A stretch of 64,000 bases of DNA, from assembly GCF_003576595.1 (NCBI RefSeq), contig NZ_NQOU01000002.1, positions 1 to 64,000 on the forward strand, given 5' to 3'. Positions 34,690 to 51,268 of the stretch are shown one piece after another (the stretch's first letter is position 1; the number at the start of each line of letters is the position of its first letter). Both the position numbers and the translations under genes were made by a program. The notes under the pieces were generated by a model. It did not search any database, was not told where the DNA came from, and saw only the letters and a program-made list of their open reading frames with translations. This DNA is from Neopusillimonas maritima. Lineage in GTDB: Bacteria; Pseudomonadota; Gammaproteobacteria; Burkholderiales; Burkholderiaceae_B.

Positions 34690-34765
34690 GGCCTGGTAGC
34701 TCAGTTGGTAGAGCAGCGGATTGAAAATCCGCGTGTCGGTGGTTCGATTCCGCCCCAGGCCACCA
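34690..34765 (+). tRNA. tRNA-Phe (anticodon GAA)
   Basis: Full cloverleaf of 76 bases with encoded CCA. The acceptor stem is GGCCTGG/CCAGGCC, the anticodon loop TTGAAAA gives GAA, and the T-arm GGTGG-TTCGATT-CCGCC is canonical. The mobile element begins 25 bases after its 3' end. The tRNA 3' end is not duplicated at the other border, so the element did not integrate into the tRNA sequence itself. Confidence 0.97.
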
Positions 34766-34790
34766 TTCGGCCCCAGTTATAATGAAAAGT

Positions 34791-34809
34791 GTGCCGTTAA
34801 GCATAAAAC
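34791..34809 (+). repeat. Left terminal inverted repeat
   Basis: 19 bases matching the right end at 18 positions (A/G difference at position 10). Preceded directly by AAAAGT (34785-34790). Inside it, TTAAGCATAA pairs as an inverted partner with CTTATGCTTTAA at 34824-34835, resembling paired recombinase-binding arms. Confidence 0.85.
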
Positions 34810-34851
34810 CGCCATTCGGAAGACTTATGCTTTAAATCCCGATCGGCAACA

Positions 34852-35170
34852 TTACGCTTTATTGGGATCAGAGGTTAAACTAGAAAGTTTGCCTGAAATT
34901 GCTAAAAGCCAGTCGATCTTGGTTCCACAGGTAATCGTATCAACGTAGAGCTTGTGGCTCTCAGGTCGATGATCCTTATTGGCTTTCTCAACTCGAACGT
35001 CAATCCATTGCCACTTCTTGAACTGCCGACCCTCCTCGATCATCCGAAAAGGGTACTGGATATAGGCGACGCATCGAACCATCCTGGCTGATGCCCGCCA
35101 CGCACGAGGTCTCGACGTACTGTGCACTGGGCGAGGGATACGTTTTCGCCAGAATCAGAATGCGCTCCAT
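34852..35170 (-). pseudogene. Small conserved gene downstream of res, broken by a +1 frameshift
   Basis: The first frame starts at ATG 35170 (MERILILAKTYPSPSAQYVE...) and runs to YPVPF. The continuing sequence RMIEEGRQFKKWQWIDVRVE lies in the next frame and ends at 34852. Removing one T from the T4 run (plus-strand A4 at 35047-35050) joins both into one 105-residue protein. I recall similar short proteins beside restriction loci but cannot name a function. It begins 41 bases after the res stop, so it is the last gene of that operon and ends 61 bases inside the element border. Either real decay, phase variation at the short homopolymer, or a sequencing error. Confidence 0.7.
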
Positions 35171-35211
35171 TCGCCCCAAAGCCAAAGTCCCCTCCTAGTA
35201 TCTCAATTGCC

Positions 35212-37917
35212 TTATAGAAGCATCCGAAAATTCCGCTTGTCTGCATCCGACGATTTGAGAAGCCGGTACTCCATACCGCTTGCCACCGCCATCTGCTGGG
35301 CGAATTCCTTCTTCGCCTGCACAACGGCGTCCTCAATCTGGTTGTCGGCCTTTACCTCGACAATGACATACTTGAGGCTACCGTCGGGCTCTTCACGCTG
35401 GAAAATGAAGTCGGGATAGTAGCTACGCACAGTACGGGAATCGGGATCGATGTACTGAACGAAGAAATCGGACTGCCCATGGGTCAGCATCCCGGTGAAG
35501 TAGATCTTCCTCACGCGCTGCTCACGCAACAAATCCCAGAACAGCCAGTTCTCCGAGCCGGAGTCGAAGCAGTAGGTGTCAAGGTGGAAGCTCTTGGCGC
35601 GCTCGTCTTCCTTAATTTGCGCGTCGTGCATTCGCACGACCTTGTCCTTCGCCGCCGACACCTCATAATAGCCATTTACAGGTATCTTGATCAGGTCAAC
35701 CTCGTACTCATCCTTCTTCTCGTACTCGTCGAGATCGAACAACAAACGAAACAGACGTGGAATGATCTCGTCGTAGAGCAGCTCATTAAACTCGTTGGTG
35801 ATAGCCACCAACTCGTCAGTACCTTCCTTCGTAGCGTCGAGCAGATCCTCCACCTCCAGTGGGCTTCGATTCAAATAGCGAGATACCTCAGCCACCAACG
35901 AGAGCCGCGAGAAAACACGCTTCTCACGCCGCGAGGTCAGGTCGAAAGTTTGACTACCAGAAGCGCGAGCGGCAGCAGCAACGGTCAAACCCTCCTGCCG
36001 CGTTTCGATCAGCCGGTATTTCTCAACCATTGCCTTCCAGCTTTCCTGGTCAGCACGGGCTAGCCCCAGAGGTTGGCCGGGTACCAGTTTTTTTTCACGC
36101 ATTTGGTAGAGCTTGCGCACGCGTACCAGTTTGATCTTGACCGGCGGCTCGACCACGCGGATTTCCACACGCTCCTTGTCCTTACCTCCCTTTTGCAGCT
36201 CATCAACGCTGATGCGGAAATTCTGCTGCAGCTCATCGTTGAGTGTCTTAAGGTTAGGCTCCGAGAGGAAGACGTGGCCGGTATGCTGAGCCTGGCCGAT
36301 GGCTCGCAGACATCGCATAGTGGCCTGCAGCACGAACACCTTGGATTTGGGCTCGCGAAACAGCCCCACGCCGAACAGAGAACGGCAGTTCCAGCCTTCC
36401 CGCCCCTTGTTGACCAACAGGATGAACTGCTTCTCCGAGCCTTCAGTATCCAGCCGGTTGAACTCACGGATGTCGTCGTTGGTGGTGATTTTGCTGTCGC
36501 CTACATTGACTAAAATCCGTGATGTGGGAATGCCGTACTTGAGCAGTGCACGCTCGACGGCCGGCTTCAGTTCCTCCACCAACTCGTCGACAGTGCTAGC
36601 GAAGAAGGCCAATTTGGGCAGCAGACCTTCCGGGCGCAAATCGCCTGTTTCTTTGAGAAAGGTCTCGACCGCGATATCGACAAACTCATCATTGCGTGTG
36701 TTGGCGTAACCGCGCAACTCCACGTTCTTCAGATAGCCTTTTTCGATGGCCTCCTTAAGCCCGTAGGCATAAACCACCTCGGGCAGCACTTCACGCCCAA
36801 CGTAGGGCGTACCGGTGTAGTTGTAGCAGGCCACCACCCGCGTACCCGCCGCGCTCAGACTGGTCGCCAGGATGTCGATGGTGGTGCGCAGGCTAGTGTC
36901 GGTTTCCTTTGCCCCAACGCCCATGTCCTTGGCCAGCGCCTTGCCGAAGGCATGGTGGGCCTCGTCAACAAAGATGCCCAATTGCTCCAGACGGCGCAGT
37001 TTTTCGAAGCGCTGATTGGTGGTGAGCTCGCCTTCTTCCTCTGGCTGATCGAAGTTATAAAGGTCGGCCGCATCGGCATACACACCTGTGGCGGTGAGGG
37101 TTTCGCCGGTCGCGCCGAACAACATGTCGACAGAGTTTTTTTCCTTGTGCTTGCGCTTCAGAATGATCTTCTGAGTATTGGAAACAATGATGTTGAAACG
37201 CGACCGATCCAGCGTATCGAGCGAGGTGCCTGCCTCTTCTAGGTAGTGGAAACGCAGGTGCATGGTCAGGAAGTTGACGTATTCTGGTGGCACCACACGA
37301 GTCAGGTCGAAGGCTTCGATTTCCCTCAACGACTGAAGCACAGTCTTATCCGGCGCAAACACCAGAGCATTGTGGCAGTAACGCTCATCCTTTGGGAACT
37401 TGTTAGCTAGCAGGAATTCGTAAAAAACACAGGTCGCCATCAGGATGGTTTTGCCGGTGCCCATCGTCAACGCGAAAATATAGTTCGGGTAAGCGCGAGA
37501 GTTCTTGCGCATCCGCTCGAACAGCAGCTTGTACGAGCTCAGCTCCAGCTCGTCAGACTCGCCAAACTGGAACATCTCCTGCCCGGCGGTACCAAGAAAA
37601 GAGCCAAACCTACGGCCTTCAAACTTGTCGCTGCGCTCGTACCAGGATTTGAAGATTTCCTCGACCTTGACATTGCCGAAAAACTCTTTCAAAAAAATAT
37701 AGGTTTCCAGCGCCTCGAACTGCGGCTGACGCAAAAAAGCGGTGGGGCTTTTCTCCGGATTATTGAAGTCGAGGAACTTGCGGGTCAACTCTTTGTAGTT
37801 CTGCCGGATCGCCCCCCGATTATCCTGATAAAACTGCCAAAGAAATCGGAAAAAGGCGAAGTTCAGCGATGCGCTGGAACTGCTGGCCGCCTTCTTGGCC
37901 GCACGCTTAGTCGCCAT
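35212..37917 (-). CDS. Type III restriction enzyme Res subunit (helicase-endonuclease)
   Basis: 901 residues from ATG 37917 (GGGAGGGGAG site); the open frame upstream to 38061 only shadows mod. Helicase motifs: Walker A TMGTGKTIL (about 151-159), FVDEAHHAFGK (DEAH at 318-321), CYNYTGTPY and ATMRCLRAIG (motif VI). The C-terminus carries the nuclease core YYPDFIF...YVIVEVKADNQ of PD-(D/E)XK type (about residues 835-860). It therefore has the ATPase and cleavage functions of type III restriction. It overlaps the mod stop by 11 bases, so both subunits are made together. Composition is host-like and GC-richer than the rest of the island. Confidence 0.92.
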   Translation of the reverse strand: MATKRAAKKAASSSSASLNFAFFRFLWQFYQDNRGAIRQNYKELTRKFLDFNNPEKSPTAFLRQPQFEALETYIFLKEFFGNVKVEEIFKSWYERSDKFEGRRFGSFLGTAGQEMFQFGESDELELSSYKLLFERMRKNSRAYPNYIFALTMGTGKTILMATCVFYEFLLANKFPKDERYCHNALVFAPDKTVLQSLREIEAFDLTRVVPPEYVNFLTMHLRFHYLEEAGTSLDTLDRSRFNIIVSNTQKIILKRKHKEKNSVDMLFGATGETLTATGVYADAADLYNFDQPEEEGELTTNQRFEKLRRLEQLGIFVDEAHHAFGKALAKDMGVGAKETDTSLRTTIDILATSLSAAGTRVVACYNYTGTPYVGREVLPEVVYAYGLKEAIEKGYLKNVELRGYANTRNDEFVDIAVETFLKETGDLRPEGLLPKLAFFASTVDELVEELKPAVERALLKYGIPTSRILVNVGDSKITTNDDIREFNRLDTEGSEKQFILLVNKGREGWNCRSLFGVGLFREPKSKVFVLQATMRCLRAIGQAQHTGHVFLSEPNLKTLNDELQQNFRISVDELQKGGKDKERVEIRVVEPPVKIKLVRVRKLYQMREKKLVPGQPLGLARADQESWKAMVEKYRLIETRQEGLTVAAAARASGSQTFDLTSRREKRVFSRLSLVAEVSRYLNRSPLEVEDLLDATKEGTDELVAITNEFNELLYDEIIPRLFRLLFDLDEYEKKDEYEVDLIKIPVNGYYEVSAAKDKVVRMHDAQIKEDERAKSFHLDTYCFDSGSENWLFWDLLREQRVRKIYFTGMLTHGQSDFFVQYIDPDSRTVRSYYPDFIFQREEPDGSLKYVIVEVKADNQIEDAVVQAKKEFAQQMAVASGMEYRLLKSSDADKRNFRMLL

Positions 37918-39730
37918 GGCTGATACTCCCCTCCCAGGATTCCGACAGCAGATCAGTAATCTTGACGCGGATGGTGCCAGCGCCCTCGGGCACTGAGTAC
38001 ACACCCTTGACCAGGTCGTTCTTGCCGGGGATGTCCACCACCGCTGGCTGCAAAACCGCACCGTCGTAGTTCCAATCGATCAGCACCGATTCGGCCAGCT
38101 CCTTCCAATCCTCAACCGACTCCTTATGCAGCGAGAGCTTCTGCAACAGGTTCATCGGATAGAAGCGCTCTATGAGCAGTTCGCCATTCTTGATGGCGAC
38201 CTTGGCCTGCGAGTCGCGCTTGAACTCCAGATCGGCCTTGTCACGCAGGATGTCCACCACTTCCACATCGATCTTGAAGGGCTTGGCGGCATACTCCAGT
38301 TGCGCGGCCAAGTCAGGTTCGTGGCCTATGCAGACGAGTGTAATCTTCTCCACCGGACGGTTCGGACTTTCGTTTTGCTTGCGCTCCCAGGCCTTATAGT
38401 CAAAGCCTGCGATCAGCTCATTTAGATCCGCGCGCGTGGCGATGCGGTTGACGGGCATAATCTTGACCATGCGTCCATCCTTCTCGCCATCGAAGACGGT
38501 ACTGAACTCCAGCTTCTGGATTTCCAGGGCTTCGATCAGCAGTTCCTTCGCCTGAACGGGGTTGCGAAATACGTCATAATGATTGACGTTGTAGACATCA
38601 AACCCAGTGTAGTACTTGGTCTCTTCTTCAAGCGACTTCTGACGTAAATCTTCGGCGACACCACTCAGCCGCTTTGCCGTCGTCTGAATTGCACCCAAGT
38701 TAATGTCAGCACCGATAAATCGGCGGCCGAGCTTCATCGCTACGGCTTGAGTCGTGCCAGAGCCCATAAAGCAATCAAAAACCAAATCGCCAGAACTCGA
38801 TCCGAGTTTAATAATGCGTTCAAGTAAATAATCTGGTTTCTGAGTTGGATAACCTGTTCGTTGACCATCTGACGAGTTCAACAAGGGCAGGTCCCAGACG
38901 GTGTCTAGGGGCTTACCTGCAGAAACGATATCCTTTACATAACGTCTATAGCGTTCGCCGTTCCCAGCATCACTTAGGACATACTCTTCACCATTTTCAT
39001 CTTTAATAATGTCGTGCCGATGAGCAACAAAATCTTCATAGCACCACTGCACTGTCACTTCACTTAGACTAAACTCGTCGCTTTTGGCGTACATAAGCAA
39101 ATTATCATGCTTGGCGTCTAGCTTTTTCTCTCTAGCAGCTGTTCTCTGGCCATAGTGCCAAATTATTTCATTTCTGAAATTCGAAACCCCAAAAATCTCG
39201 TCAAGAATCAGTCTTACCCTGTGCGCTTGCTTTTGATCCACGTGCACGATGAGAGCACCTCTTGGAGAGAGAAGCTCTCTAATTAAAACTAAACGTTCAT
39301 ATATGAACTGCAAATAATCATCATTAGCCCAAATATCGGTGTATTGCTTTTCCTCAAACGAGGAATAATCATTCGTAGAAGATCTCCCGTTTAATTTAAT
39401 CTTTCTGTTGTAGTCCGCCTTCGAGTCAAATGGCGGGTCAATATAAACAAAATCAATCTTGCCCCGAAATTCCTTCAGCAAGTGGCTCATCACCTGAAGG
39501 TTATCCCCCCAGAAAATCTTATTGCGCCAGCCGTCCACTTCCTCGCCGTGAACCTCCTTCAACTGTGCCGGATAATACTGCGTGGACGTGAACGGACGTT
39601 TGCCACGCCAGTTCAGCATCGGATAGCCCTTGATGGGTTCGAATTCGTATTTTTCTACCGAATCCAGGTATTTCGGGCTGACTTCGGCAACACCCAGATT
39701 CAACTGCTCTTTCGTACCATCACTCATCAT
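37907..39730 (-). CDS. Type III DNA methyltransferase Mod subunit
   Basis: 607 residues. Motif IV is DPPF (98-101, in YIDPPFDSKADYN) and motif I FDCFMGSGTT (318-327) follows it, the order of beta-class N6-adenine/N4-cytosine methyltransferases that includes type III Mod. Mod recognises and methylates the site and guides Res. The recognition region between the motifs (roughly 38780-39430) is visibly AT-richer than both flanks, suggesting module exchange. The start ATG directly abuts the helicase stop (TAGATG), and its end overlaps res, so the three genes are one operon. Confidence 0.93.
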   Translation of the reverse strand: MMSDGTKEQLNLGVAEVSPKYLDSVEKYEFEPIKGYPMLNWRGKRPFTSTQYYPAQLKEVHGEEVDGWRNKIFWGDNLQVMSHLLKEFRGKIDFVYIDPPFDSKADYNRKIKLNGRSSTNDYSSFEEKQYTDIWANDDYLQFIYERLVLIRELLSPRGALIVHVDQKQAHRVRLILDEIFGVSNFRNEIIWHYGQRTAAREKKLDAKHDNLLMYAKSDEFSLSEVTVQWCYEDFVAHRHDIIKDENGEEYVLSDAGNGERYRRYVKDIVSAGKPLDTVWDLPLLNSSDGQRTGYPTQKPDYLLERIIKLGSSSGDLVFDCFMGSGTTQAVAMKLGRRFIGADINLGAIQTTAKRLSGVAEDLRQKSLEEETKYYTGFDVYNVNHYDVFRNPVQAKELLIEALEIQKLEFSTVFDGEKDGRMVKIMPVNRIATRADLNELIAGFDYKAWERKQNESPNRPVEKITLVCIGHEPDLAAQLEYAAKPFKIDVEVVDILRDKADLEFKRDSQAKVAIKNGELLIERFYPMNLLQKLSLHKESVEDWKELAESVLIDWNYDGAVLQPAVVDIPGKNDLVKGVYSVPEGAGTIRVKITDLLSESWEGSISHGD

Positions 39731-42646
39731 CTACTCTCTAAACTTCCAATTTTTACTATCGCAATAGGGCCGTATATCACAGCTCAGGCATAACTTGGCC
39801 GGGCGCGACGTAATCTGATAGTCCTGCCGCTCAATACGCGACACGATGTCATCAAAACGCGCAATGGTTTTGTCAATTGCGCGATCATCTTTACTAAAGG
39901 ATACATACGGATTACCCGCATCTTCGCCGGTGTAGTATAGGTGCATCCGACTGACCTTTTGGCCGGTGCGTTCTTCCACCAAATGCGCATATACCTCCAG
40001 TTGGTGCTGATACTGGCGAAGGCGGTCGCGGTCTTTCTCCATGTCGGGCTTCTTTTCCGATTTGAAATCGATGATCTCAACCGTGCCCTGTTCGCCCCGA
40101 ATCAAGTCGACATTACCCCGTAGGATGTACTGATCCTTGATGAGTGAAATCTCAACTTCGGCTTCTTTTATACGATCCCAGTTTCCGTTTTCGCGCTCGT
40201 AGTAACGCAGCGCGTGCCCCAACGCCGCCTGTTGCGACGACGGCGCGAGATAGACACGTTCCTTCTTCGACAGCATGGCATAGTTGGCCGAGAACCAGCT
40301 TTCGATGGCATCTCGATTCAAGGTTCTTTCCTCGCCGCGCAGCACGGTCTTGTGGATATCCTCGATGGTCTGGTGCACCAAGGTACCGAACAGCATCGGG
40401 CTTTCGCGTATAGGAGCGAACTCCAATTCCTTAAAGAAACGGTACTGCTCTGCGCAGTTCTCAAACACCGTAATGTGCGAGGTAAAGGAATACTCCCTCT
40501 TGAGGCTGATCTGCTTGACCGCCTCGAAACTCAGTGCTGAAAAGTCAGCATCACGCCAACTGGGCTGCTCGTAGAACATCCGCTCGAAATATTTCGATGG
40601 TGACTTACCAAGACCTTTTCCCCGACGCTCCTGTGCGGCCAATACCAACAAATTCTGCGCACGCGAGAAGGCGGTGTAAAACAGTCGCCAGAAGTCAAAA
40701 TTCTTAATGTGCTCCAACGGCTCGAAGGCTGACTTAGAAAGGTAGCCCCCCTCTTCCAGCGACGCATCCAGTGCACTGTGCTGCTTACGCGGCACTGCTT
40801 CGAGCGAACCACACACCACTACCGGGAACTCCAACCCCTTGGACTGGTGAATGGTGAGAAAGGACACACAGCCCTTGGGCGCATATTCAGCCTCATCCTC
40901 GTATTCGCCGATACCGCCTTCAACTAGAAAGCGCAGAAACTGATGAAACAGATCGCGGATGTTTTTTTCCAACCATTGCGGATTCAAAACACTGACGAAG
41001 TGCAGATACTCGAACTTAGTAAGCAGCTTAGAAAAGGTGCCCAAGTTTCGCGCCGCCCGGCCTTTGTCTAGGCCCAGCACTGCATCTTCCGACAGGAATC
41101 GCGAAAACAGTGGGAACTGAAGTAATTGATAAAACAGGCCTGAGAAGGCGTAATCAGTATTCTGCGCCAGCACGGCGTGACGCTTGGCCAGCGGCCGTGC
41201 CCAATCCAATAGAGGTTTGTTTTCAGGCTTGCGCAGCTCGTCGGCGAACGTCTTGAAGCACTGGTGATCGTAGTAATCCCAGATGGGTAGCGTTACGCCT
41301 GCAGCCCACTCTCGTACTTGGGGAAACTGCGGGAATAGGAAGATCAAGGCGCCTATCATCAGGCGGACCTCCTCGCGCTCGAAAAACATGTTCGAGCGTG
41401 GCGAGAACACAGGCACACCCTCGGCTTCCAGGAAGCGCGCCAGCGACACGACCCTCTCATTCTTGACCGAACGGAACAGAAAGGCCGCTTGGTTCCAGTC
41501 AGATAACTGCCCCGATTCCTTCAGGCCGTTGAGAAAGGCCAGCACTTCGGCATGCCAATTAACCGCTTCTTCCTGACTGTCAGCTGCAGAAAGGCGAAGC
41601 ACAGCGGGCACTTCGGGGAAATCATCCTCGCGAGGCACAATCTGCTTGGCAAAACGGAAGGTGCGCGCCCCATCCTCCCAGGTCTGTTCCTTCATCCACT
41701 CGTTGTAGAAGCGAATAATGTCCGGATGCGAGCGGTAGTTGACCGTGAGCTTGACCTGTTTGCACTGACCTTCGGCGAACAGCCCGGGAAATTCCAGAAT
41801 GTTGCGGATAGTGGCACCGCGAAAACGGTATAAGCCCTGATCGTCGTCACCCACCACACATAGATTGCGGCGCTCGCCCGACAACAGTAAAAGAATACGC
41901 TCCTGAATAGTATTGGTGTCTTGGTACTCATCTACCATCAGGTAGGTAAGCCTCTCACGCAATTGAGCCAGAGCTTCCGGATGCCTCTGCAGCAGCTGCA
42001 ACGCCTCGTACTGGATACCGGAAAAGTCAAGAGAGTTGTGCTCCAGCAGGAGCTCCTGATACTTAACGAAACAGGCGGCGAGCGCGCGAATTTCGGGCTC
42101 AGGAGCTAGCGTCAACGCTGCGATATCAAGCGCCTCTTCCCCGACCTTATTGAGCCACTTAAGCAGATTCTCTGACTGTTTCCAGCGCCCCGACTGGTCT
42201 TCGCCCATGACAAGCTGCGCATCAGGCAGTGCGCGGAATTCCTTGATACGTTGGTACAAAAAATACTGCTGATCAAACTGATCAAACAGTGTGAAGCTAC
42301 GTTTGAGGCGAGTGAACTCCCGAAAATCTTCCAGCAGTCGCAGGCAGATAGAATGGAAAGTACCCAAATACATCTCGTTCAGGTTGAACTGAATGTCGAG
42401 ATCGGCCAGCCGATTGGAGATGCGTGTAGTCAGCTCACGCGCGGCTTTATCGGTGAAAGTAACGACGAACAGCGATTCGGGCACAACGCCTTTTTGCGTG
42501 ATGAGATATACGATGCGCTCGACCAGGGTGAAAGTCTTCCCCGAGCCCGGACCCGCGATGATGAGAACCGGGCCTTCAGTGGCAAGAATGGCTTGTAGCT
42601 GCTGCGGATTAGCGTTGCTTTGAAGAGCACTCGTAATAGCGGTCAT
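39731..42646 (-). CDS. UvrD-family helicase fused to a Cas4/AddB-like PD-(D/E)XK nuclease
   Basis: 971 residues from ATG 42646 (GGAG site). Superfamily 1 motifs: GPGSGKT (32-38), VDEYQDTN, GDDDQGLYRFRGA, NYRSHPDI, LTIHQSKGLEFPVVVCG and FYTAFSRAQNLLVLA. The C-terminal third has the nuclease core VEIIDFKSEKKPD (about residue 880), with a Cys in VFENCAEQYRF and CLSCDIRPYC at the end, the pattern of iron-sulfur-bound Cas4/AddB nucleases. Such proteins unwind and trim DNA ends. It is first in the operon ahead of mod and res, unlike a simple type III pair, so it likely aids restriction or degrades cut phage DNA. Confidence 0.9.
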   Translation of the reverse strand: MTAITSALQSNANPQQLQAILATEGPVLIIAGPGSGKTFTLVERIVYLITQKGVVPESLFVVTFTDKAARELTTRISNRLADLDIQFNLNEMYLGTFHSICLRLLEDFREFTRLKRSFTLFDQFDQQYFLYQRIKEFRALPDAQLVMGEDQSGRWKQSENLLKWLNKVGEEALDIAALTLAPEPEIRALAACFVKYQELLLEHNSLDFSGIQYEALQLLQRHPEALAQLRERLTYLMVDEYQDTNTIQERILLLLSGERRNLCVVGDDDQGLYRFRGATIRNILEFPGLFAEGQCKQVKLTVNYRSHPDIIRFYNEWMKEQTWEDGARTFRFAKQIVPREDDFPEVPAVLRLSAADSQEEAVNWHAEVLAFLNGLKESGQLSDWNQAAFLFRSVKNERVVSLARFLEAEGVPVFSPRSNMFFEREEVRLMIGALIFLFPQFPQVREWAAGVTLPIWDYYDHQCFKTFADELRKPENKPLLDWARPLAKRHAVLAQNTDYAFSGLFYQLLQFPLFSRFLSEDAVLGLDKGRAARNLGTFSKLLTKFEYLHFVSVLNPQWLEKNIRDLFHQFLRFLVEGGIGEYEDEAEYAPKGCVSFLTIHQSKGLEFPVVVCGSLEAVPRKQHSALDASLEEGGYLSKSAFEPLEHIKNFDFWRLFYTAFSRAQNLLVLAAQERRGKGLGKSPSKYFERMFYEQPSWRDADFSALSFEAVKQISLKREYSFTSHITVFENCAEQYRFFKELEFAPIRESPMLFGTLVHQTIEDIHKTVLRGEERTLNRDAIESWFSANYAMLSKKERVYLAPSSQQAALGHALRYYERENGNWDRIKEAEVEISLIKDQYILRGNVDLIRGEQGTVEIIDFKSEKKPDMEKDRDRLRQYQHQLEVYAHLVEERTGQKVSRMHLYYTGEDAGNPYVSFSKDDRAIDKTIARFDDIVSRIERQDYQITSRPAKLCLSCDIRPYCDSKNWKFRE

Positions 42647-43099
42647 ACTCCACAACACCCCGTAGAGCAGCCAATGTCACCATGCCCTCTACAACTCCGG
42701 AGCTTTGTAATTCGATTCATCAATCAATCCCTGCCCGCGCATATTTGTCATATTCACTTAAGTTTGGACAATTTCAAGGAATTTGGCAACACACCTGCCA
42801 AGCCCGGGTCTTACACCCTGAAACTTCAAATATCATGTCGGCAGGCCTATCCGTACCCGTACCCCTCAGTCTCGTAAATAGAAACCCCCATTACCTTGAG
42901 TCCTCTGATCGCGCCTAGGCTAATACTTATTGCGCGTGCAACGCGCGCATGTTGTTGTACTTATTACGTCGCGATCTGTAGTGCTCGGCTGAAATCCGAC
43001 GACAGGCTAGTCAAACTCGCCGAGCGTTATCCTTACCGCTACAAAAGGAGGGCATGCTGTTCCTGGCGGACTTGACCAGCCCTCCGTATAGCTTCAGCG
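42647..43099. other. Intergenic region of the island, no recognised gene
   Basis: About 450 bases between the divergent helicase operon and the decayed fragment. No open frame here looks coding, and no tRNA or repeat array is seen. The promoter of the leftward helicase-mod-res operon should lie in its first 200 bases. A GC-rich self-complementary piece (GCGCGTGCAACGCGCGC, near 42933-42949) could form a hairpin. Confidence 0.4.
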
Positions 43100-43409
43100 C
43101 AGATTTTTTGTTCAAAGCCAATTGCCGATGGCCTCGTGGTTACAGATCTGGACACTGAGCGCTTGGGTGACCAACGCCGCTGCCGACTGTACCGTGACCC
43201 AACATTCATGGAGTTTACCCAACAACAATTTCCACAAGAGGATCCGCTGGGCATACAAAACCTCAGATTTTGAGATTAACTACTATGAGCGAGCCCAAGA
43301 ACTCGCGATTAAGCGGGGCTGGATAACAATGAACCTCGTGCAACGAACATTCCGGCTCAGCTACGGATATGTGCTCTCGATCGTAGAAGCGCTCCAGCAT
43401 ACGTCCTGA
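43100..43409 (+). pseudogene. Decayed fragment with FtsK gamma-domain-like end
   Basis: Two adjoining frames look protein-like. The first reads KPIADGLVVTDLDTERLG... to LGIQNLRF and stops near 43279. The other continues with YYERAQELAIKRGWITMNLV and QRTFRLSYGYVLSIVEAL, ending at 43409. The second piece resembles the winged-helix gamma domain at the C-terminus of FtsK translocases, which similar islands and conjugative elements often carry as small genes. A frameshift near 43265 separates the halves. No upstream motor domain exists. Function lost or unknown; the family match is by eye. Confidence 0.4.
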
Positions 43410-43541
43410 CTACTTCATTTTATTTCTTCCTGAGAAGTCGAATGCGCCGAGCGAAGGCAACGGCTCCAAACTGGGGAGTCCTGCCAAAAAAGACACATTC
43501 TGTTACTATCGGCATAGTGACAAGAAGAGAGGAGCACAGCA

Positions 43542-44237
43542 ATGGCAAGATGCACGGCACCAGTTCGGGGGCACAGTTCCGCAGCAGCGCGAGCGGCCTG
43601 CCCTGCATGCAGTTCCCGCTATGGCGGTTACCGCAGCAGCTACAGCTCACCATACTCGTCTGGAGGCAGAAGCAGCTTCAGCCGCAGTGGCAGATCAAGC
43701 GGAGGCGGTACTTCAAGGCCGCGATGGTCGCCTGCCGGTTCATCCGTCACGTACACCCCTGCTCAGGTAGCATCCCTAACACCGGTTCGCGAGGCTGTTG
43801 AAAAAGAAGCGGGGGCGAAGCTAGACCTTAGGGATTGCTTCCTATGCCATGCTTGGGATGATCGGCAGGGAGCCGCCAAGGAATTGTACGACTTGCTCCA
43901 GGCAGTTGGTGTCAAGGTTTGGTTCAGTGAAAAGGACCTTGGCCTTGGCGTGCCGATGATGCGAGCCATCGACAAGGGTTTGGCGGCCTCGAAAATTGGG
44001 CTCGTCCTAGTGACCCCTGCATTGCTAGAACGCCTCCCGAAAGAGGGAGTCGCCGACAAAGAGCTTTCGACCCTCCTGCAGAGTAACCGGCTCGTGCCCA
44101 TCGTACACGGAACGACGTACACAGCGCTTCGCGATGTTAGCCCCATGCTCGCTTCGCGAAGCGGTCTGGACACGTCGGACGACGCAATGGCGGTGGTCGC
44201 AACCAAAATTGCCGAGTTGGTCGCCATCTGGAGCTGA
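43542..44237 (+). CDS. TIR-domain protein with N-terminal Cys/His motif and Ser/Gly/Arg-rich linker
   Basis: 231 residues, with GAGG before the ATG. Residues 1-23 hold Cys4, His11, Cys20 and Cys23 (CTAPVRGHSSAAARAACPAC), a possible metal-binding knuckle. A Ser/Gly/Arg/Tyr-rich low-complexity stretch follows (24-70). The TIR domain covers about 96-230: CFLCHAWDDR, VKVWFSEKDLGLG, IGLVLVTPALL, and ADKELSTLL, where Glu174 sits at the place of the catalytic NADase glutamate. Bacterial TIR proteins often cleave NAD to abort phage infection. It is the first rightward cargo gene and is separated from the next operon by a structured 199-base gap. Effector role is inferred. Confidence 0.82.
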   Translation: MARCTAPVRGHSSAAARAACPACSSRYGGYRSSYSSPYSSGGRSSFSRSGRSSGGGTSRPRWSPAGSSVTYTPAQVASLTPVREAVEKEAGAKLDLRDCFLCHAWDDRQGAAKELYDLLQAVGVKVWFSEKDLGLGVPMMRAIDKGLAASKIGLVLVTPALLERLPKEGVADKELSTLLQSNRLVPIVHGTTYTALRDVSPMLASRSGLDTSDDAMAVVATKIAELVAIWS

Positions 44238-44327
44238 CATGATTGCGGAAGACTTGCCACATGGCCTCTATCCCAAAAGGCAGCCATGATTGCCTTTCCC
44301 CGTTGTGCAGTCCATCGATGCTTTTGA

Positions 44328-44399
44328 GTCTACTCCCTGATGGCAAGATTACGTCGAACTACAACAACCCCCTGCACTTGAAGCAGGCTTGGAGTAGAC
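44328..44399. repeat. Nested inverted repeat between the TIR gene and the three-gene operon
   Basis: Perfect outer 9-bp arms GTCTACTCC (44328-44336) and GGAGTAGAC (44391-44399) enclose a second hairpin CCTGC-(7 bases)-GCAGG (44371-44387). The total span is 72 bases. Read on the minus strand, the inner loop is TTCAAGT, T-loop-like, yet the rest does not make a cloverleaf. It could be a small structured RNA, a regulator site or a remnant end. No reverse transcriptase lies nearby. Confidence 0.5.
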
Positions 44400-44436
44400 G
44401 GTCGCACTATGTGCGTTGGAACAAAAGGATAGATTA

Positions 44437-45444
44437 ATGGAGATTGGGGAATCGGTTGTCCAAGCGGTCATCCTGCATCAGGTCGGGAACCGATTGCGGG
44501 AGGAGCCTCTGGTTCTGGCGGAGCATTGCTTCGCGATAACAGATCGTATCTCTAACGTCATTCTCGGCGGTTATCTGCGCGGCATCGTCAGCGACAAGAA
44601 CCAATATGTGTTGAGTCATGAGAGCGACATGGCTCTAAACGACGTGGCACATCACGTGTCGGGCTTTTTCACCAAAAAAATGTCCTTCGTGGAATTGTCA
44701 CATAATCTGGCCTCCCATTTATATGCTTCGGCCCATCACCCAAACATTGCAGCTGGCGATCTCTTCGTTATCCTTTTTGAAAAATTGAAAGTGGATGGTG
44801 CTTACCAATCTGCAGTCGGCATCTATAAGTCAGAATCAAAACAGCAGTATTTGTCCGCTCGTACGCACGGACAAATACAGGAGCTCGAAGTTTACAGCGG
44901 CATCAATCCCGACCTGATCGACAAGGGCGTTTTGATTGTTGATGGCTCCGATGTTATCTATGCCATTGATCGACTCAGTAGTCGGACAAAATATTGGATT
45001 GATGATTTCCTGAAGGCAAAACAGATTCCCAATGAAAGCACTAAGTCCGCCGTCGCCGCCGGGCTGATAGATAAAGTTCGGGAAAACATTGAAAGCCCTA
45101 TGGCGCGACAGGATTTTTGTCGCGAAGTCGTTGCCTTATGCTCAGATAGAAACGAGGTACTTGGTGAAGAAATCAGAGAGGTGTCGGAACGATATGTTTC
45201 TCCTGATGTATGGCACACAGAACTGGAGAGGCTTGTTGAACGCAAAGGGTTGATTGGCACCGGAGAAATTAGCGTATCTGCAAGAAGCCTTCAGACCAAA
45301 CTGAAGAGAATATTTAATCGCATCAACCTGGGCCACAACATTAGCCTGATGGTCCCTGACAGCCTGTCATTGAGCGACGTGGATTTCAAAATAGATGGCA
45401 AATCTGTACAGGTAAGCGTAACGCTGGAGAAGAACAGTGGGTGA
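44437..45444 (+). CDS. NdpA/YejK-like nucleoid-associated protein
   Basis: 335 residues from ATG 44437 (AGGA site); a TTG at 44416 would add seven. The opening MEIGESVVQAVILHQVGNR, the internal DLFVILFEKLKVDGAYQSAVGIYKSE and the later KGVLIVDGSDVIYAIDRL fit the 37-kDa nucleoid-associated (NdpA/YejK) fold, though similarity to E. coli YejK appears low. Known members bind the nucleoid; diverged members occur in defence loci. Its stop overlaps the next start by 8 bases, so it is coupled to the nuclease-like gene. GC is lower than in the flanking chromosome. Confidence 0.6.
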   Translation: MEIGESVVQAVILHQVGNRLREEPLVLAEHCFAITDRISNVILGGYLRGIVSDKNQYVLSHESDMALNDVAHHVSGFFTKKMSFVELSHNLASHLYASAHHPNIAAGDLFVILFEKLKVDGAYQSAVGIYKSESKQQYLSARTHGQIQELEVYSGINPDLIDKGVLIVDGSDVIYAIDRLSSRTKYWIDDFLKAKQIPNESTKSAVAAGLIDKVRENIESPMARQDFCREVVALCSDRNEVLGEEIREVSERYVSPDVWHTELERLVERKGLIGTGEISVSARSLQTKLKRIFNRINLGHNISLMVPDSLSLSDVDFKIDGKSVQVSVTLEKNSG

Positions 45445-46354
45445 ATCATCGAAAACTTCCGGAGAGAATGGGGAAAAAATCACGGAAGAACTCTTGAAGC
45501 TAATTGGCTGGAGCAGCCCCCTGAAGGGTGTCAGTGTTCCTTGCAATAGCAAATCGCATGACAAGAAGACTCACGGCAATGACTTCGTTTTTATTTACAA
45601 CAACCCACTCCATGAGAACCGCACAGATATAGTTTATGTATCTTCGAAGAACGTCAAGAAAGGCTACCCAAAAGGTGACCAGGGGGTTAAGACAGCCTTC
45701 AAAGGCCATTTATCAGAGCTTGATGGGATCGTATCCTGTTCAAAGGTCAGCGGCGAAATTAAACAGGCAATACAAACCTTCCAAGGGCGCAAACAGAAGA
45801 AACATGTTGGTTTACTCGTATGGTTGCATGGCGATCGGGAAACCCAAAATAGAGATATTAAGCCCGCCTTGAGTCGTATCCAGCTGGATTTGGCATCGAA
45901 CTGCCCACTCTATCTTGTCGACATGGCCCGTGCATCTTTCATTAAGGAGGCCATCAGCCATTTCAGAGCAAGCAAGCAAGGGGAGAAATACCACTTTTAC
46001 TACCCCAAACTGGGAAATGTTATTGCAAATGCCGATGAACGCTATGGGGATTTGTTGCCTATCGAACTCATGGCATCTGACCTCATTCCTATCCGATTCA
46101 CGCTAGGGGAAAAACCTTCTCTCTGCCTGTACGCCAAGCAATCCTTTTCGGAGGAGTCGATGAAGAAGCTTTGCAGCCTTGCTTTTGACTTTGCGGATGG
46201 ATGGGTGCAGGATATTTTTATCGGCTTGGAAAGCTACCATCCCGCAGAGGACAAACAGACAAAGGATGCAGTTCTTATGGCATACCAGGATAGGAAAGCA
46301 AACATCAAAGTATTCTGCTACAAGGAATCCATTCTTGATCTTCTGGAGTATTGA
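45437..46354 (+). CDS. PD-(D/E)XK-like protein, possibly GapS4a-type defence protein
   Basis: 305 residues from GTG 45437. The N-terminus has a restriction-fold pattern: SGENGEKITEELLKLIGW with a conserved-looking Glu, KTHGNDFVFIYNN with Asp, then DIVYVSSKNVKK with Ser-x-Lys, as in PD-(D/E)XK variants that begin with a helix carrying GE. From memory the MGE-SK-xGExGE opening recalls GapS4a family proteins of mobile defence islands; this needs a search. The remaining ~200 residues are unfamiliar. It overlaps the NdpA-like gene by 8 bases and the next gene begins 2 bases after its stop: a compact operon. Confidence 0.5.
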   Translation: MGESSKTSGENGEKITEELLKLIGWSSPLKGVSVPCNSKSHDKKTHGNDFVFIYNNPLHENRTDIVYVSSKNVKKGYPKGDQGVKTAFKGHLSELDGIVSCSKVSGEIKQAIQTFQGRKQKKHVGLLVWLHGDRETQNRDIKPALSRIQLDLASNCPLYLVDMARASFIKEAISHFRASKQGEKYHFYYPKLGNVIANADERYGDLLPIELMASDLIPIRFTLGEKPSLCLYAKQSFSEESMKKLCSLAFDFADGWVQDIFIGLESYHPAEDKQTKDAVLMAYQDRKANIKVFCYKESILDLLEY

Positions 46355-46356
46355 TT

Positions 46357-47499
46357 ATGAGCACTCCGACCAAGACAACCCCTGCGAAACAATTTGATTA
46401 CGAACGGGCCATGTTATGGGGGGACCGTTTGAGAGTATTGCTCAATAGTGACCACATCAGCAGTGGCGAGATAAATGAGACGCTCAAGGAAAAAGGAATA
46501 TTTATTGGCAGTACCGATAAGTCTGATACTGTGCCGCTATTAAGCGCCTGCCTGCTTACTCCCAACGAATTTAAGCGCCTAATTGGAAAGTCATTTATTC
46601 GAGAATCGGGTAAAAAGTATTCATCCGATAAGCTGAAGCTAAGCTCCGCAGAGGTTGACTGGAAAACAGAACTGTTGAATAACTTCGATTCAGTAGTCGG
46701 AGGCATCGAGTTGGAGGGTGGCCGAGAATTTGCCTCTGAGCCCGCCATATCCGTCGATCCTAATGGAAATATACAGATCACATACTCTGTACGGATGCTG
46801 GATTTTAGCGCGGACTTTATAGAGCAGGAGATTGTTTACCCTGGCGAAATTCACCTCAGACAATCTGGAGATGGCTTGGAAATTGAAGCCAGTAAAACCA
46901 GAACATCAAAAGACACCAGTAAACTAAATGATGCGGTGATCGGTGCCATTGGCAAATTTTACAAATCAAAGGGCATAACTACGAGTGAAAAACCGGAGTC
47001 TATTGTTTTTGATGACTTCACAAACAGTGAACGTATCCGCTTCTTCCTGCAATTGACATCTATTAACACTTCCGATTTCACTTTCAAGGAAATTGATAAT
47101 TTCGAGATCATTCGAGATCAGGAGGCCGGAGCACTGCCGAAAGAGCAACGGATTGAGTGGATGGACGGGCATGTCAATAAAATACAGATAAAAGGAAGCG
47201 ATCTTGGAAAAGTCTTTCTTCTTCAGGAGAAAACTTACTACCAGTACTACTATTTGGTGAAAATGACGGCTACATATGCTTTCAAGTTCGGCGCAAATGC
47301 TGGCGATTGCGGTGTTGAGTTCGCCTTCTCTGGAAAAACGTCAAGAGACGACAATTACTCCGGAACTATGTTCGATTTCAGTATTGAACGAATCCCCCGC
47401 TTGGAAGAAGGAAGCAAGAATCAGGTACGAAAGGCCATAATCCAAAAAATTCAAGAAGCAAGGGATGCGGCTTTCAAGCATGTTAAGCCCCAGCAATAG
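46357..47499 (+). CDS. Unrecognised protein, third gene of the NdpA/nuclease-like operon
   Basis: 380 residues from ATG 46357 with GGAG 9 bases before it. I do not recognise the family (GapS4b-like is one guess by position). The N-terminal third seems helical (YERAMLWGDRLRVLLNSDHI, INETLKEKGIFIG); the middle and C-terminal parts alternate charged beta-like stretches (ISVDPNGNIQITYSVRM; YYQYYYLVKMTATYAF). It has no signal peptide, membrane segment or nucleotide motif. It shares low GC and tight spacing with the two genes before it, so it was probably acquired with them. Last gene before the right border. Confidence 0.6.
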   Translation: MSTPTKTTPAKQFDYERAMLWGDRLRVLLNSDHISSGEINETLKEKGIFIGSTDKSDTVPLLSACLLTPNEFKRLIGKSFIRESGKKYSSDKLKLSSAEVDWKTELLNNFDSVVGGIELEGGREFASEPAISVDPNGNIQITYSVRMLDFSADFIEQEIVYPGEIHLRQSGDGLEIEASKTRTSKDTSKLNDAVIGAIGKFYKSKGITTSEKPESIVFDDFTNSERIRFFLQLTSINTSDFTFKEIDNFEIIRDQEAGALPKEQRIEWMDGHVNKIQIKGSDLGKVFLLQEKTYYQYYYLVKMTATYAFKFGANAGDCGVEFAFSGKTSRDDNYSGTMFDFSIERIPRLEEGSKNQVRKAIIQKIQEARDAAFKHVKPQQ

Positions 47500-47812
47500 A
47501 TATCGACACGCTAGTGCATGCGCACCATCGAGATGAGTGATCTCACAAATCCCCTGCGAAGCGTCATCATCATCGAAAAAGGTGGTTGTGACAATGATTT
47601 GCCAGCAAGCCTAAATCGACATTGTGCACGGCAATGAAAACCGTCTGTAATCTAGGGTAGATTTTTTACTGGACGATCGGCAGCTTTATGCTTTAATTAC
47701 CGGTAGTTTTATGCCTAACGGCACAAAAGTTTCAGGGGCTTTTTGCTGTCTGAAGCACAAGCAGGCACCTATCGTTAAGCAATTCGCCCCGGCATCAAGC
47801 CAGAGAGTTCGT
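47500..47812. other. Right border region of the element and host junction
   Basis: Contains no credible gene. It holds the inner motif (47686-47696), the right terminal repeat (47706-47724) and the AAAAGT duplication (47725-47730). Host sequence follows: TTTCAGGGGCTTTTTGC at 47731-47747. Joined to the left flank (GGCCCCAG at 34769-34776), the pre-insertion site would contain GCCCC...GGGGCTTTTT, which looks like a terminator of tRNA-Phe. Confidence 0.55.
47706..47724 (-). repeat. Right terminal inverted repeat
   Basis: Inverted match of 34791-34809 (18/19), followed directly by AAAAGT (47725-47730). A further TTATGCTTTAA lies just inside (47686-47696) in direct orientation with TTATGCCTAA of the terminal repeat. 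The 8-mer GATCGGCA occurs near both ends (34841-34848 and 47675-47682). Confidence 0.85.
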
Positions 47813-49069
47813 TCACAATAATCTGAACATGTCTTGTACTTGCGGTACAAACGTCATGAATACCAACATTAAGAACAGCAGCAGGACAAAGGGCAGGCAT
47901 CCTTTGAAAACGCGCATGACGGGCACTTTACTGATGGCGCTGATCGCAAACAGATTCAGCCCGATGGGGGGTGTAATAACCGCAATTTCCATATTCAGAA
48001 TCAGCAGCATGCCAAAAAAAACAGGGTCAATATCAAACCCCATAATCATCGGCATGAGAATAGGCATCGTAATCAAAATAACGGAAATGACTTCCAACGC
48101 CATGCCAATCAGGAAGAACAGCAACATGACACCAACGAGGAACTCGGTACTGCTTAAGTTCATCGCCATGATGCCGTCGAATAAGACATGGGGTATGCGC
48201 TCGCTTGTAATGGCATACCCAAATAACTGAGCCCCCGCCAGAATCATCATGATGATGCTGGACATTTTGGCGGAACTGGTGAGGATCGGAAGCAGGCCTT
48301 TAACGGAAACGCCGTAACACAATGCCAGAAATATGGCATATACAGAGCTAATTGCAGCAGCCTCCATGGGCGTAAAGTAACCGGAATAAATCCCGCCCAG
48401 AACAATCACGGGAGACATCAGCACACCAAATGCCGATTTAAAAGCCGCGAGCCGTTCACGCGAACTTGCCTTTGGCTGAGGCGGCACGCCGGAAGCCCGG
48501 CTATATCCATACGCAACAACCGTTAAAAGCGCGGTCAGAATAATGCCCACGATCGCGCCCGCGGTAAACAACCTGGCAATTGACGTTTCGGTCACGATGC
48601 CATAAATCACCAGTGGCACCGACGGGGGCAACAATATACCCAGTCCACCCGCACTGGCAATGAGACCAACCGAGAACGTCCGGTCGTATCCACGTTTAAC
48701 CATTTCCGGGATCAGAATCGTGCCCACCGCGGCAGCAGTGGCAACCGAACTGCCACTGATCGACGAAAACATGACGGTCGCAAAAACAGCCACCACGGGC
48801 AAGCCACCGCGTGTATGGCGTATCAAGACGTCAATGAAATGAATCAATCGGTTGGTGGCACCCGTGCGGCTCATCACCTCGGCTGCCAGAATAAAAAAGG
48901 GGATAGCCAACAAGCTGGGTGTGCTCAACGCGCTAAAGAGTTGCGAGGCCAGTGTCGCAGGCATGGCGTCTTGTACGAGCAAATACACAAGACCGCACAA
49001 GCCTAATGCGAACGCAATCGGCATTCCACTTGCCAGGCCAACAGCAAATGTCGTCAAAAATGAAAACAT
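47813..49069 (-). CDS. dctM: TRAP transporter large permease (DctM type)
   Basis: 418 residues with about 12 hydrophobic segments. The conserved loop VMFSSISGSSVATAAAVGTILIPEM and the LGILLPPSVPLVIYG and VITPPIGLNLFAI segments are diagnostic. It forms the ion-driven channel of a tripartite TRAP importer, taking substrate from the periplasmic DctP protein. Its start is 19 bases after dctQ. The substrate is unknown, probably an organic acid. The gene's stop lies only 82 bases from the right end of the mobile element. Confidence 0.92.
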   Translation of the reverse strand: MFSFLTTFAVGLASGMPIAFALGLCGLVYLLVQDAMPATLASQLFSALSTPSLLAIPFFILAAEVMSRTGATNRLIHFIDVLIRHTRGGLPVVAVFATVMFSSISGSSVATAAAVGTILIPEMVKRGYDRTFSVGLIASAGGLGILLPPSVPLVIYGIVTETSIARLFTAGAIVGIILTALLTVVAYGYSRASGVPPQPKASSRERLAAFKSAFGVLMSPVIVLGGIYSGYFTPMEAAAISSVYAIFLALCYGVSVKGLLPILTSSAKMSSIIMMILAGAQLFGYAITSERIPHVLFDGIMAMNLSSTEFLVGVMLLFFLIGMALEVISVILITMPILMPMIMGFDIDPVFFGMLLILNMEIAVITPPIGLNLFAISAISKVPVMRVFKGCLPFVLLLFLMLVFMTFVPQVQDMFRLL

Positions 49070-49088
49070 GGGTCAGTTCCTACCACAG

Positions 49089-49613
49089 TCATGTTGCTGA
49101 AGATTCGGCCTGCTCTGATTGCGGATCAGCGGCACCCGTCAAGAGAGAAACAAATCGCTGAATCAACCGTAGCGATAAAAGCGCACCACCTAAAGGCAAA
49201 ATGACCTGGGGTATCCACATTGGCATGCGCAGCATCGTCATGGACACTTCACCCAGCATATGGCTTTCCATGACCAACTCCCAACCGGAATAGGTAAGAT
49301 ACAAAGCAAAGAAAAGGGACAACAACGTGCCCAGCATGTCTAGAATCCGACCGGCAGTTTTGGGAAGCACGGTGAAAATCACATCGATCCGCACATGTTG
49401 ATTAGACTTGACTGCTAACGCAGCGGTAAAAAGAATGCTCCAAATAATGGCATAGGCGGCAATTTCATCACCGCCTATGATTGAAAATCCAAAGACTGAT
49501 CGCAGGAATATTTGCAGAACAATAATAAATACCGACAGCGTCAGGAACAGCCCGCCAATGAATATTTCAAGACGATCCCACGCACGACCGACCGTGCTTA
49601 GCATATTACGCAT
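49089..49613 (-). CDS. dctQ: TRAP transporter small permease (DctQ type)
   Basis: 174 residues with four membrane helices (IFIGGLFLTLSVFIIVLQIFL; AAYAIIWSILFTAALAV; ILDMLGTLLSLFFALYLTY; WIPQVILPLGGALLSL) and the family pattern of NQHVRIDVIF between helices 2 and 3. It supports DctM. It lies between dctP and dctM in the usual PQM order; the C-terminal tail is acidic and polar. Confidence 0.9.
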   Translation of the reverse strand: MRNMLSTVGRAWDRLEIFIGGLFLTLSVFIIVLQIFLRSVFGFSIIGGDEIAAYAIIWSILFTAALAVKSNQHVRIDVIFTVLPKTAGRILDMLGTLLSLFFALYLTYSGWELVMESHMLGEVSMTMLRMPMWIPQVILPLGGALLSLRLIQRFVSLLTGAADPQSEQAESSAT

Positions 49614-49640
49614 GGTGGGCTGGCCTCCTGTCTTGTCGTC

Positions 49641-50627
49641 TTACTGGCCCGCAGCGCTTTGAATCTCGGCAATGAGTTTGCGTACCGGCTCACTTTGACT
49701 TTCATAAACGCTTTTGTATTTATCCCGCCATTGCGCCAGCACCTGGCCATCAACCTCTTGAATCACAACACCGTTATCCACCAGGGTTTTCTCGGCAGCG
49801 GCCGAGTTCGAGACCGAGACGTCGTGATTCCATTTTTGTGCGTCGGCCATGGCTTTCATCAACGCATTGCGATGGTCCTCACTCAATTTGTCCCAGCGTG
49901 CCTGATTGATCACAACGGCATAGCCACCATGCTGCTGCAATACACGGGTCATGCCCGTTAGAACTTCGTACCAGCGCGCCGATGCAGCCAGGGTGACAGT
50001 CGTAATGGCACCGTTCACCAAACCCTGCTGCAAGGCCAAATAAACATCGGGGGCTTGAATGGAGACAGGGGAGGCACCTACAACACGCACACCTTCCTCA
50101 AGAGGGGCCGAAGGCGTTACACGAACTTTACGACCGGCCATATCTTCAGGTTTTACCACTGGCTCACCGCTGGTATAGATGTAACCCGGACCATCATTCC
50201 ACAAGCCAATACCGCGCACTTTGAATTGATCAAGATCTTTCAGCAGTGTTTGACCAATCTCGCCCTCGAACACTTTGATGCTGTGCTCAAAAGAATTGAA
50301 CAAACCGGGCTGATTGAAAATCTCCCAACGATCATCCAAAGGCACGTAATAGGAAGTTAAGGGAGCAACAATATCGACTTGACCACGAATTGCGGCACGA
50401 ATTTCATCTTTAGAAGAAACCAACTGCGCGCCCGGATACACATCAATACGCAACGTACCGTTGCTGTATTCGTCCACCTTCTCCGCAAACAATTTAATTG
50501 TCCTGGCTTTAATCGTATTTTCTGGAAGATCATGCGGAAACTTGAGCGCAACTACTTCGCTTGCCATTGCGCCAGAAACAAGTAGGCTACCTAATGCTGC
50601 AACGAAATATCGTAAAGCTTTCATCAT
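49641..50627 (-). CDS. dctP: TRAP transporter solute-binding protein (DctP type)
   Basis: 328 residues. The signal peptide is MMKALRYFVAALGSLLVSGAMA, with likely cleavage after ASA/AMAS. The mature domain has the TRAP features IRAAIRGQVDIVAPLTSYYV, FEGEIGQTLLKDL and GRKVRVTPSAP with the substrate-carboxylate Arg. It captures the solute in the periplasm. It is first in the operon; the 163-base gap upstream to ridA should hold the promoter. It differs from the DctP at 57.0 kb, so the two systems serve different substrates. Confidence 0.92.
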   Translation of the reverse strand: MMKALRYFVAALGSLLVSGAMASEVVALKFPHDLPENTIKARTIKLFAEKVDEYSNGTLRIDVYPGAQLVSSKDEIRAAIRGQVDIVAPLTSYYVPLDDRWEIFNQPGLFNSFEHSIKVFEGEIGQTLLKDLDQFKVRGIGLWNDGPGYIYTSGEPVVKPEDMAGRKVRVTPSAPLEEGVRVVGASPVSIQAPDVYLALQQGLVNGAITTVTLAASARWYEVLTGMTRVLQQHGGYAVVINQARWDKLSEDHRNALMKAMADAQKWNHDVSVSNSAAAEKTLVDNGVVIQEVDGQVLAQWRDKYKSVYESQSEPVRKLIAEIQSAAGQ

Positions 50628-50790
50628 TGTTCCTTATAAACAGAAGGCCCTGCTTCCTGCCCTATAAACGCGATGTCCAATATGCGGGGAAGCAAATACA
50701 AAAAATGAGATCGTTATAGCGCAATAACTTGATCCATTTTCATAACATTCTATTTGTAGAACAATAGGTACTACCCCTTAGTCACCTCAC

Positions 50791-51186: not shown

Positions 51187-51268
51187 AACTACCTCCTTGA
51201 TTTTTACAAACGGCTGAATATCGGCTTTAAGCAGCCACTATTGCCACACCAATACATTCTGTCAAGGG

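Follow-up and report, generated by a model that had tools for sequence, protein, structure and literature searches.

A probable decayed Tn7-like transposon of the TnsA-TnsB-fusion lineage, with defense genes, downstream of tRNA-Phe in Neopusillimonas maritima

The window analyzed here comprises positions 1–64,000 of contig NZ_NQOU01000002.1 from the draft genome of Neopusillimonas maritima (3.25 Mb in 26 contigs). Between a tRNA-Phe gene and dctM it holds an element of 12,936 bp, positions 34790–47725, that is bounded by TGTGCCGTTARGCATAA...TTATGCYTAACGGCACA and carries a set of defense genes. The element appears to be a decayed Tn7-like transposon of the TnsA-TnsB-fusion lineage that inserted past tRNA-Phe together with these genes, a reading drawn from sequence comparison to which we assign a probability of about 0.93. 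The features that delimit it, and the remnant of its transposition genes, are as follows.

34690–34765, plus strand: tRNA-Phe (gaa) gene, the presumed homing site, detected with ARAGORN
34785–34789, no strand: left copy of the target duplication, AAAAG; a genome of the same genus (G401) is collinear to here and then diverges
34790–34872, plus strand: tRNA-proximal transposon end, TGTGCCGTTAAGCATAA plus two inverted inner copies, TTATGCTTTA and TTACGCTTTA
42992–43306 (approximate), plus strand: tnsA relic of a tnsAB fusion, broken into at least three frame segments and without the TnsB catalytic domain
47676–47725, minus strand: tRNA-distal transposon end, TGTGCCGTTAGGCATAA plus one direct inner copy, AAAGCATAA
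47726–47729, no strand: right copy of the target duplication, AAAG, which has one A fewer than the left copy, presumably by contraction

The 20-base pattern TGTGCCGTTARGCATAAAAC, which includes the leading T, matches without mismatch at 34790 on the plus strand and at 47725 on the minus strand, and these are its two matches in the window; dinucleotide shuffles averaged 0.03 matches within 3 mismatches, and none of 100 shuffles had two. With up to 3 mismatches allowed, the 19-base end occurs at only these two places in the 3.25-Mb draft genome (the backwards control had 5 matches), and a shorter 17-base pattern with 3 mismatches is near chance (28 matches versus 20 in the control). In 16 of 16 end-type matches, among which L006 and L058 are apparently one site, T precedes GTG although the search pattern lacked that base, and the ends are therefore TGT...ACA and the unit 34790–47725. 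The inverted ends of the original prediction are thus real, with the true border one base further out, and its unit of 12,934 bp is lengthened to 12,936 bp. The extra motif copy that it saw inside each end is present at both as a GCATAA-type copy. Allowing one mismatch, the first inner copy occurs in 16 of 17 proximal ends and the second in 15, and the inner copy of distal ends in all 9; these 17 and 9 ends are a selection by type, mostly obtained with a pattern starting with T. The inner copies of the proximal end are probably binding sites for the transposase.

The nature of the family emerges from relatives that retain transposition genes. In a record of Pollutimonas harenae (L150/L151), a 35.2-kb element with the same ends occupies the same hemA/tRNA-Phe site, is flanked by the repeat ACATC, and contains open reading frames of 907 (TnsAB), 351 (TniB), and 434 (TniQ) amino acids. 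These proteins are 53, 64, and 41% identical, respectively, to their homologs in a Caballeronia locus (L154), in which Pfam recognizes rve (E 4e-9), Mu-transpos_C (E 7e-11), TniB (E 4e-19), and TniQ (E 1e-21). The first 362 residues of the 907-residue protein match a protein of locus L139 (68%), and this homolog of the N-terminal third of TnsAB contains a TnsA-like domain (Pfam, E 1e-6). Another full tns set lies beside the same end, at tmRNA, in L250 (genome G464). In a search of PDB the 907-residue protein was best matched by 9bw1_M (E 1.7e-135, aligned over residues 4–851) and TniQ by 8v32_J, which is named TnsD (E 9e-32); the output gave chain names only, and we take both entries to be complexes of PmcCAST, a tRNA-homing CRISPR-associated transposon (CAST) of type I-B2. 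A plasmid search with TnsAB gave 394 records, the closest being a Caballeronia replicon (53%). Since the P. harenae element shares both the ends and the tRNA-Phe site and encodes a TnsA-TnsB fusion, TniB/TnsC, and TniQ, we assign the family to the Tn7-like transposons, and the statement that the ends belong to no nameable family is not supported.

Full tns sets are present in L150, L154, and L250, and the window element has only the tnsA relic. The natural TnsA-TnsB fusion is seen in the relatives, of which the relic covers only the equivalent of residues ~122–277, in segments 60–81% identical to that part of L150 TnsAB and 64–79% identical to L139 TnsA. When the draft genome was searched with the 907-residue protein, three pieces were found inside the element, at 42986–43264 and with 52–74% identity; elsewhere in the draft genome there was only one distant, partial TnsAB match (29%, contig C11), and no helper was found. 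The window element contained no piece of TniB or TniQ at E ≤ 0.01. Given this relic, we regard the element as a decayed Tn7-like transposon rather than one built without a transposase, and the earlier view that no transposase is visible gives way to a frameshifted and truncated tnsA at ~42992–43306. Inside L139 (15441–17908) and L151 (1541–4907) there are also serine recombinase and ParB/RepB-like genes (Pfam on three proteins), which perhaps represent a nested mobile module.

The relatives come from several searches. An exact scan of genome contigs for the end sequence returned 67 loci, of which 42 belong to Nostocales as counted from titles; in 11 of the other 25 the second inner motif can be recognized by eye. 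The Nostocales matches share 18 bases in a different repeat context, usually with TGTTCGC... upstream, and were judged by eye to be unrelated. A dispersed cyanobacterial repeat (the Nostocales loci among L023–L088) and the transposon end have 18 bases in common (GTGCCGTTAGGCATAAAA), probably by coincidence. A search of 14 genomes gave facing end pairs, from which 20 regions were fetched, leaving out an end at a contig start (L052, genome G420); a second end type (L142–L145, L147) looked IS21-like, judged by eye only, and was excluded. In 268 family genomes, the 17-base end at up to 1 mismatch was found in 27, some of these by chance since the backwards control also matched a few genomes, and a TnsAB match at E ≤ 1e-12 was found in 28, in 19 of them only partial at 27–37%. 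All such counts favor near kin of the window element because the searches start from its own end sequence.

The position of the element is also shared. Its proximal end lies 24 bases after tRNA-Phe, and at ten other loci the proximal end lies 27–30 bases after tRNA-Phe, tRNA-Met, tRNA-Ser, or tmRNA, so that 11 of the 17 proximal ends are 24–30 bases past a tRNA or tmRNA gene. L242 and L147, which have another end type and are outside the 17, lie 29 bases past tRNA-Val. Excerpts of Faure et al. (PMC10293859) place TnsD homing in CyCAST ~30–33 nucleotides downstream of the tRNA, and according to excerpts of a review (PMC11406308) I-B2 and I-D CASTs belong to a TnsAB-fusion subfamily in which TnsD uses tRNA genes. 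A literature search on tmRNA as a Tn7 site found nothing relevant among the papers listed.

Like the relatives with full sets, PmcCAST (type I-B2, Tn7744) and the type I-D CASTs (CyCAST and McCAST) have a TnsAB fusion, TniB/TnsC, and a TnsD-like TniQ, and like this family the I-B2 and I-D CASTs insert downstream of a tRNA, at a distance of a few tens of bases. In contrast to them, L150, L154, and L250 have one TniQ open reading frame each, the window element is decayed, and no Cas effector was found among the window proteins scanned, in which the Cas4 matches are to the PD-(D/E)XK domain of a helicase. With Tn7 the family shares repeated inner end motifs, one end that always faces the site, and, in 5 of the 8 two-ended elements, a 5-bp duplication, and Tn7 ends are likewise TGT...ACA. 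Tn7 differs in having separate TnsA and TnsB and in using glmS as its site. Also unlike Tn7, the tns genes are inside the element in L139 and L150 and next to the proximal end in L250; the distal end of L154 was not found.

In light of the intact relatives, the following history seems likely. A Tn7-like transposon of the TnsA-TnsB-fusion lineage would have entered ~24 bases past the 3' end of tRNA-Phe, bringing the defense genes. By analogy with those relatives, a TniQ acting like TnsD, to which it is similar, would have bound the tRNA gene, TnsC/TniB would then have been loaded, and TnsAB would have excised the element at its TGT...ACA ends and inserted it with a stagger of 5 bp. Later, tniB and tniQ would have been lost and tnsAB would have shrunk to a short frameshifted tnsA relic, whereas the defense genes and both ends persisted. 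With tniB and tniQ lost and tnsAB reduced to a relic, the element would thus be unable to move by itself.

The sequence AAAAGT stands directly outside GTG...CAC on both sides, as the original prediction observed in proposing a 6-bp duplication, but where a perfect repeat occurs in the family it is 5 bp long. A perfect 5-bp flanking repeat is found in 5 of the 8 two-ended elements, a count that includes the window element and is confined to elements that have one end of each type, proximal and distal, leaving out L147, L247, and the one-ended loci. Read from the proximal side, these repeats are CAACC (L139/L140), CCGCC (L148), ACATC (L150/L151), GGTTG (L153), and CAAGC (L249). We infer that AAAAGT in the window represents AAAAG, the right copy of which dropped one A from the run. 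Inverted ends with an apparent 6-bp footprint would also fit a tyrosine-recombinase element of the SE, GInt, RIT, or Tn554 type, and GInt elements are known from Betaproteobacteria according to excerpts of PMC10214605. SE, GInt, and Tn554 elements use tyrosine recombinases, however, and not a DDE transposase. The repeats found in the relatives are 5 bp long, with TGT/ACA ends, and the relatives with a full set have tns genes; the window element has its tnsA relic, and no tyrosine recombinase was found among the nine open reading frames scanned. This reading, which the 6-bp repeat had suggested, is contradicted by the tns genes and 5-bp repeats of the relatives, and we regard it as extremely improbable. 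An interpretation of the proximal end as an integron attC-like hairpin was likewise dropped once TnsAB had been found between the same ends.

The genome of the same genus, G401, bears on whether the Tn7-like element arrived as one block. Collinearity with the window extends to AAAAG at 34789, beyond which G401 has a terminator-like hairpin and other genes. The right flank of the window, from dctM onwards, was found in one of eight genomes searched, again G401 (96% over 1376 bases), where it lies at another place, beside a decayed distal end (TGTGTCGTTAAATATAA) ~3.3 kb from tmRNA. The original prediction had looked to an empty site in a related strain and held that borders falling elsewhere would speak against a single unit. 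On both points G401 is equivocal: its left flank stops exactly at AAAAG, but its dctM flank is at a different locus beside the decayed end, and G401 was for this reason rejected as a simple empty site. Judged from the sequences, the distal border is a transposon end in both the window genome and G401, and a rearrangement involving a transposon end likely occurred in one of the two lineages. Recombination between two family members at different sites could therefore have joined the present flanks, in which case the block would not be one insertion; the tRNA-Phe site of G401 leads into other sequence, and the flanks of L141, which occupies the corresponding tRNA-Phe site in a different species, are also unmatched. 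Still, the flanks of the window element have six bases in common around the ends, which chance recombination would rarely give, and we consider such a two-step origin unlikely.

The dctM-Q-P genes of the window (47813–50627) correspond to positions 1832755–1834140 of G401 contig C1 (L174, L176, L178), near tmRNA, and pieces similar to one window gene (~50789–51240, RidA-like by eye) are found at both G401 loci. G401 also encodes a TnsD-family protein (PF15978, TniQ; L181:10553–14577) ~2.3 kb from a further proximal end, and it has no TnsAB match at E ≤ 1e-5.

Several observations weigh against the Tn7-like reading of the window element. G401, the one close relative with both flanks, shows no simple empty site; the spacing of 24 bases is the shortest among the 11; and the repeat flanking the window element falls short of a perfect 5-mer (AAAAG on the left, AAAGT on the right). 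The two-ended elements L141 and L146 lack a matching flank repeat, as do the facing pairs with poorer ends L147 and L247, whose inclusion changes the count to 5 of 10. Furthermore, ARAGORN detected no RNA gene at 6 of the 17 proximal ends (L139, L146, L148, L181, L239, and L022), for which 0.5–1 kb of flank was scanned, or 14.6 kb in the case of L181. The RNA-gene site is thus frequent rather than universal. The family assignment stands despite the count of 11 of 17 because it rests on the genes and the ends.

The original prediction suggested that the element could be a defense carrier mobilized in trans, and the composition of the family makes this possible for the window element. A full tns set is present in one of the 8 two-ended elements (L150/L151). 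Remnants occur in 2 (the window element and L139/L140), and in the remaining 5 tblastn detected no tns gene (L141, L146, L148, and L153 at E ≤ 0.01; L249 at E ≤ 1e-3). The ends of these tns-less elements remain conserved, and three of the elements keep perfect 5-bp repeats (L153, 3.25 kb; L249, 5.6 kb; L148, 13.8 kb). It is conceivable, although we hold it to be somewhat less probable than its negation, that the window element or a recent ancestor was moved by Tns proteins that an intact relative supplied within the same cell, the small tns-less forms then being a standing part of the family. In its broader form, which we put forward tentatively and give the same weight, the family would keep small tns-less defense cassettes of 1.5–14 kb, in which the ends enclose a single cargo gene or a few, and visiting intact elements would mobilize them in trans through their TnsAB/TniQ. 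The tnsA relic, on the other hand, points to descent from a tns-bearing form, for which decay after landing could account, and internal deletion after landing fits the data equally well. No intact close TnsAB relative was found in the four genomes that host the five tns-less elements (no match in G417 and G425, one 27% partial match in G421, and none at E ≤ 1e-12 in G352). The one search made for an identical tns-less element at two sites found none, giving only a 49% homolog of one L153 gene in 1 of 399 genomes. A plasmid search with L153 gave partial matches only, with 0 of 41 records covering 80%, and a literature search for non-autonomous Tn7-like transposons revealed, judged by title, no tns-less Tn7-like elements among the papers listed.

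The genes carried by the decayed Tn7-like element in the window are the following.

34852–35127, minus strand: 91-residue open reading frame, partial match (residues 26–70, E 8e-10) to the PADLOC candidate PDC-M19B
35212–38061, minus strand: restriction-type (Res-like) protein with a ResIII domain and, close to the C-terminus, a TnsA-like nuclease domain
37907–39730, minus strand: N6/N4 DNA methyltransferase, type III-like, from domain and PADLOC searches
39731–42658, minus strand: UvrD-type helicase with a C-terminal PD-(D/E)XK nuclease, from a domain search
43542–44237, plus strand: ThsB-like TIR-domain protein (PADLOC ThsB1/ThsB, E 4e-121)
44416–45444, plus strand: NA37 (37-kDa nucleoid-associated) protein, first of the three genes of an operon (E 2.5e-16)
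45437–46354, plus strand: GapS4a family protein (NCBIfam NF047933, 302.6 bits, cut-off 270)
46351–47499, plus strand: GapS4b family protein (NCBIfam NF047934, 346.6 bits, cut-off 300)

In the restriction-type protein, TnsA-like is a domain name only, distinct from the tnsA of the transposon. The ThsB-like protein has a homolog in the Caballeronia locus L154 (62% identity). The three-gene operon that had been described as unknown can now be named as NA37 with GapS4a and GapS4b; literature searches found nothing on GapS4 among the papers listed, and the GapS4 names come from NCBIfam only. That the cargo consists only of defense genes is a fair description of the window element but not of the family, as L148, which has both ends and is flanked by a perfect repeat, includes a DctM transporter gene along with others that do not look like defense genes. 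The block with the restriction, methylase, and helicase genes (35223–42624) is 80–81% alike in three Nitrosomonas plasmids (NC_008342.1, NC_008341.1, and NZ_CP157070.1). Four plasmid records matched the window element, and none of them has the full unit with its ends. Other cargo occurs in the relatives. L141 (1700–9670), an element of 9.3 kb that occupies the same tRNA-Phe site in a different species, has Wadjet-type genes (JetA and JetD models) and a RES-domain gene. L249 (1374–5927), the 5.6-kb element at tmRNA with a perfect repeat, has one large open reading frame of 1517 residues with TPR matches and a PIN-TPR-GreABC-associated domain and with no PADLOC match at E ≤ 1e-5.

Tn7-like transposons with defense cargo have been described before, and in excerpts of Benler et al. 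2021 (PMC8649781) they carry several defense systems, as here. The window element is thus of a known kind: it belongs to the TnsAB-fusion branch, lies at a tRNA site, and is decayed. The original interpretation of a transposon-type unit with defined ends and defense genes is retained, and what had seemed an element without a transposase or a nameable family is now explained as a decayed, relic-bearing member of a known transposon lineage. Surveys based on tnsB would not see such elements, but the end sequences together with the frequent site (24–30 bases past a tRNA or tmRNA, 11 of 17 ends) allow tns-less relatives to be found. If mobilization in trans does occur, surveys based on transposase genes miss much of the cargo that is spread by the TnsAB/TniQ machinery. 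The relatives hint at how carriers of defense genes shrink and spread, and the one with a full gene set offers a means for the direct study of movement in trans.

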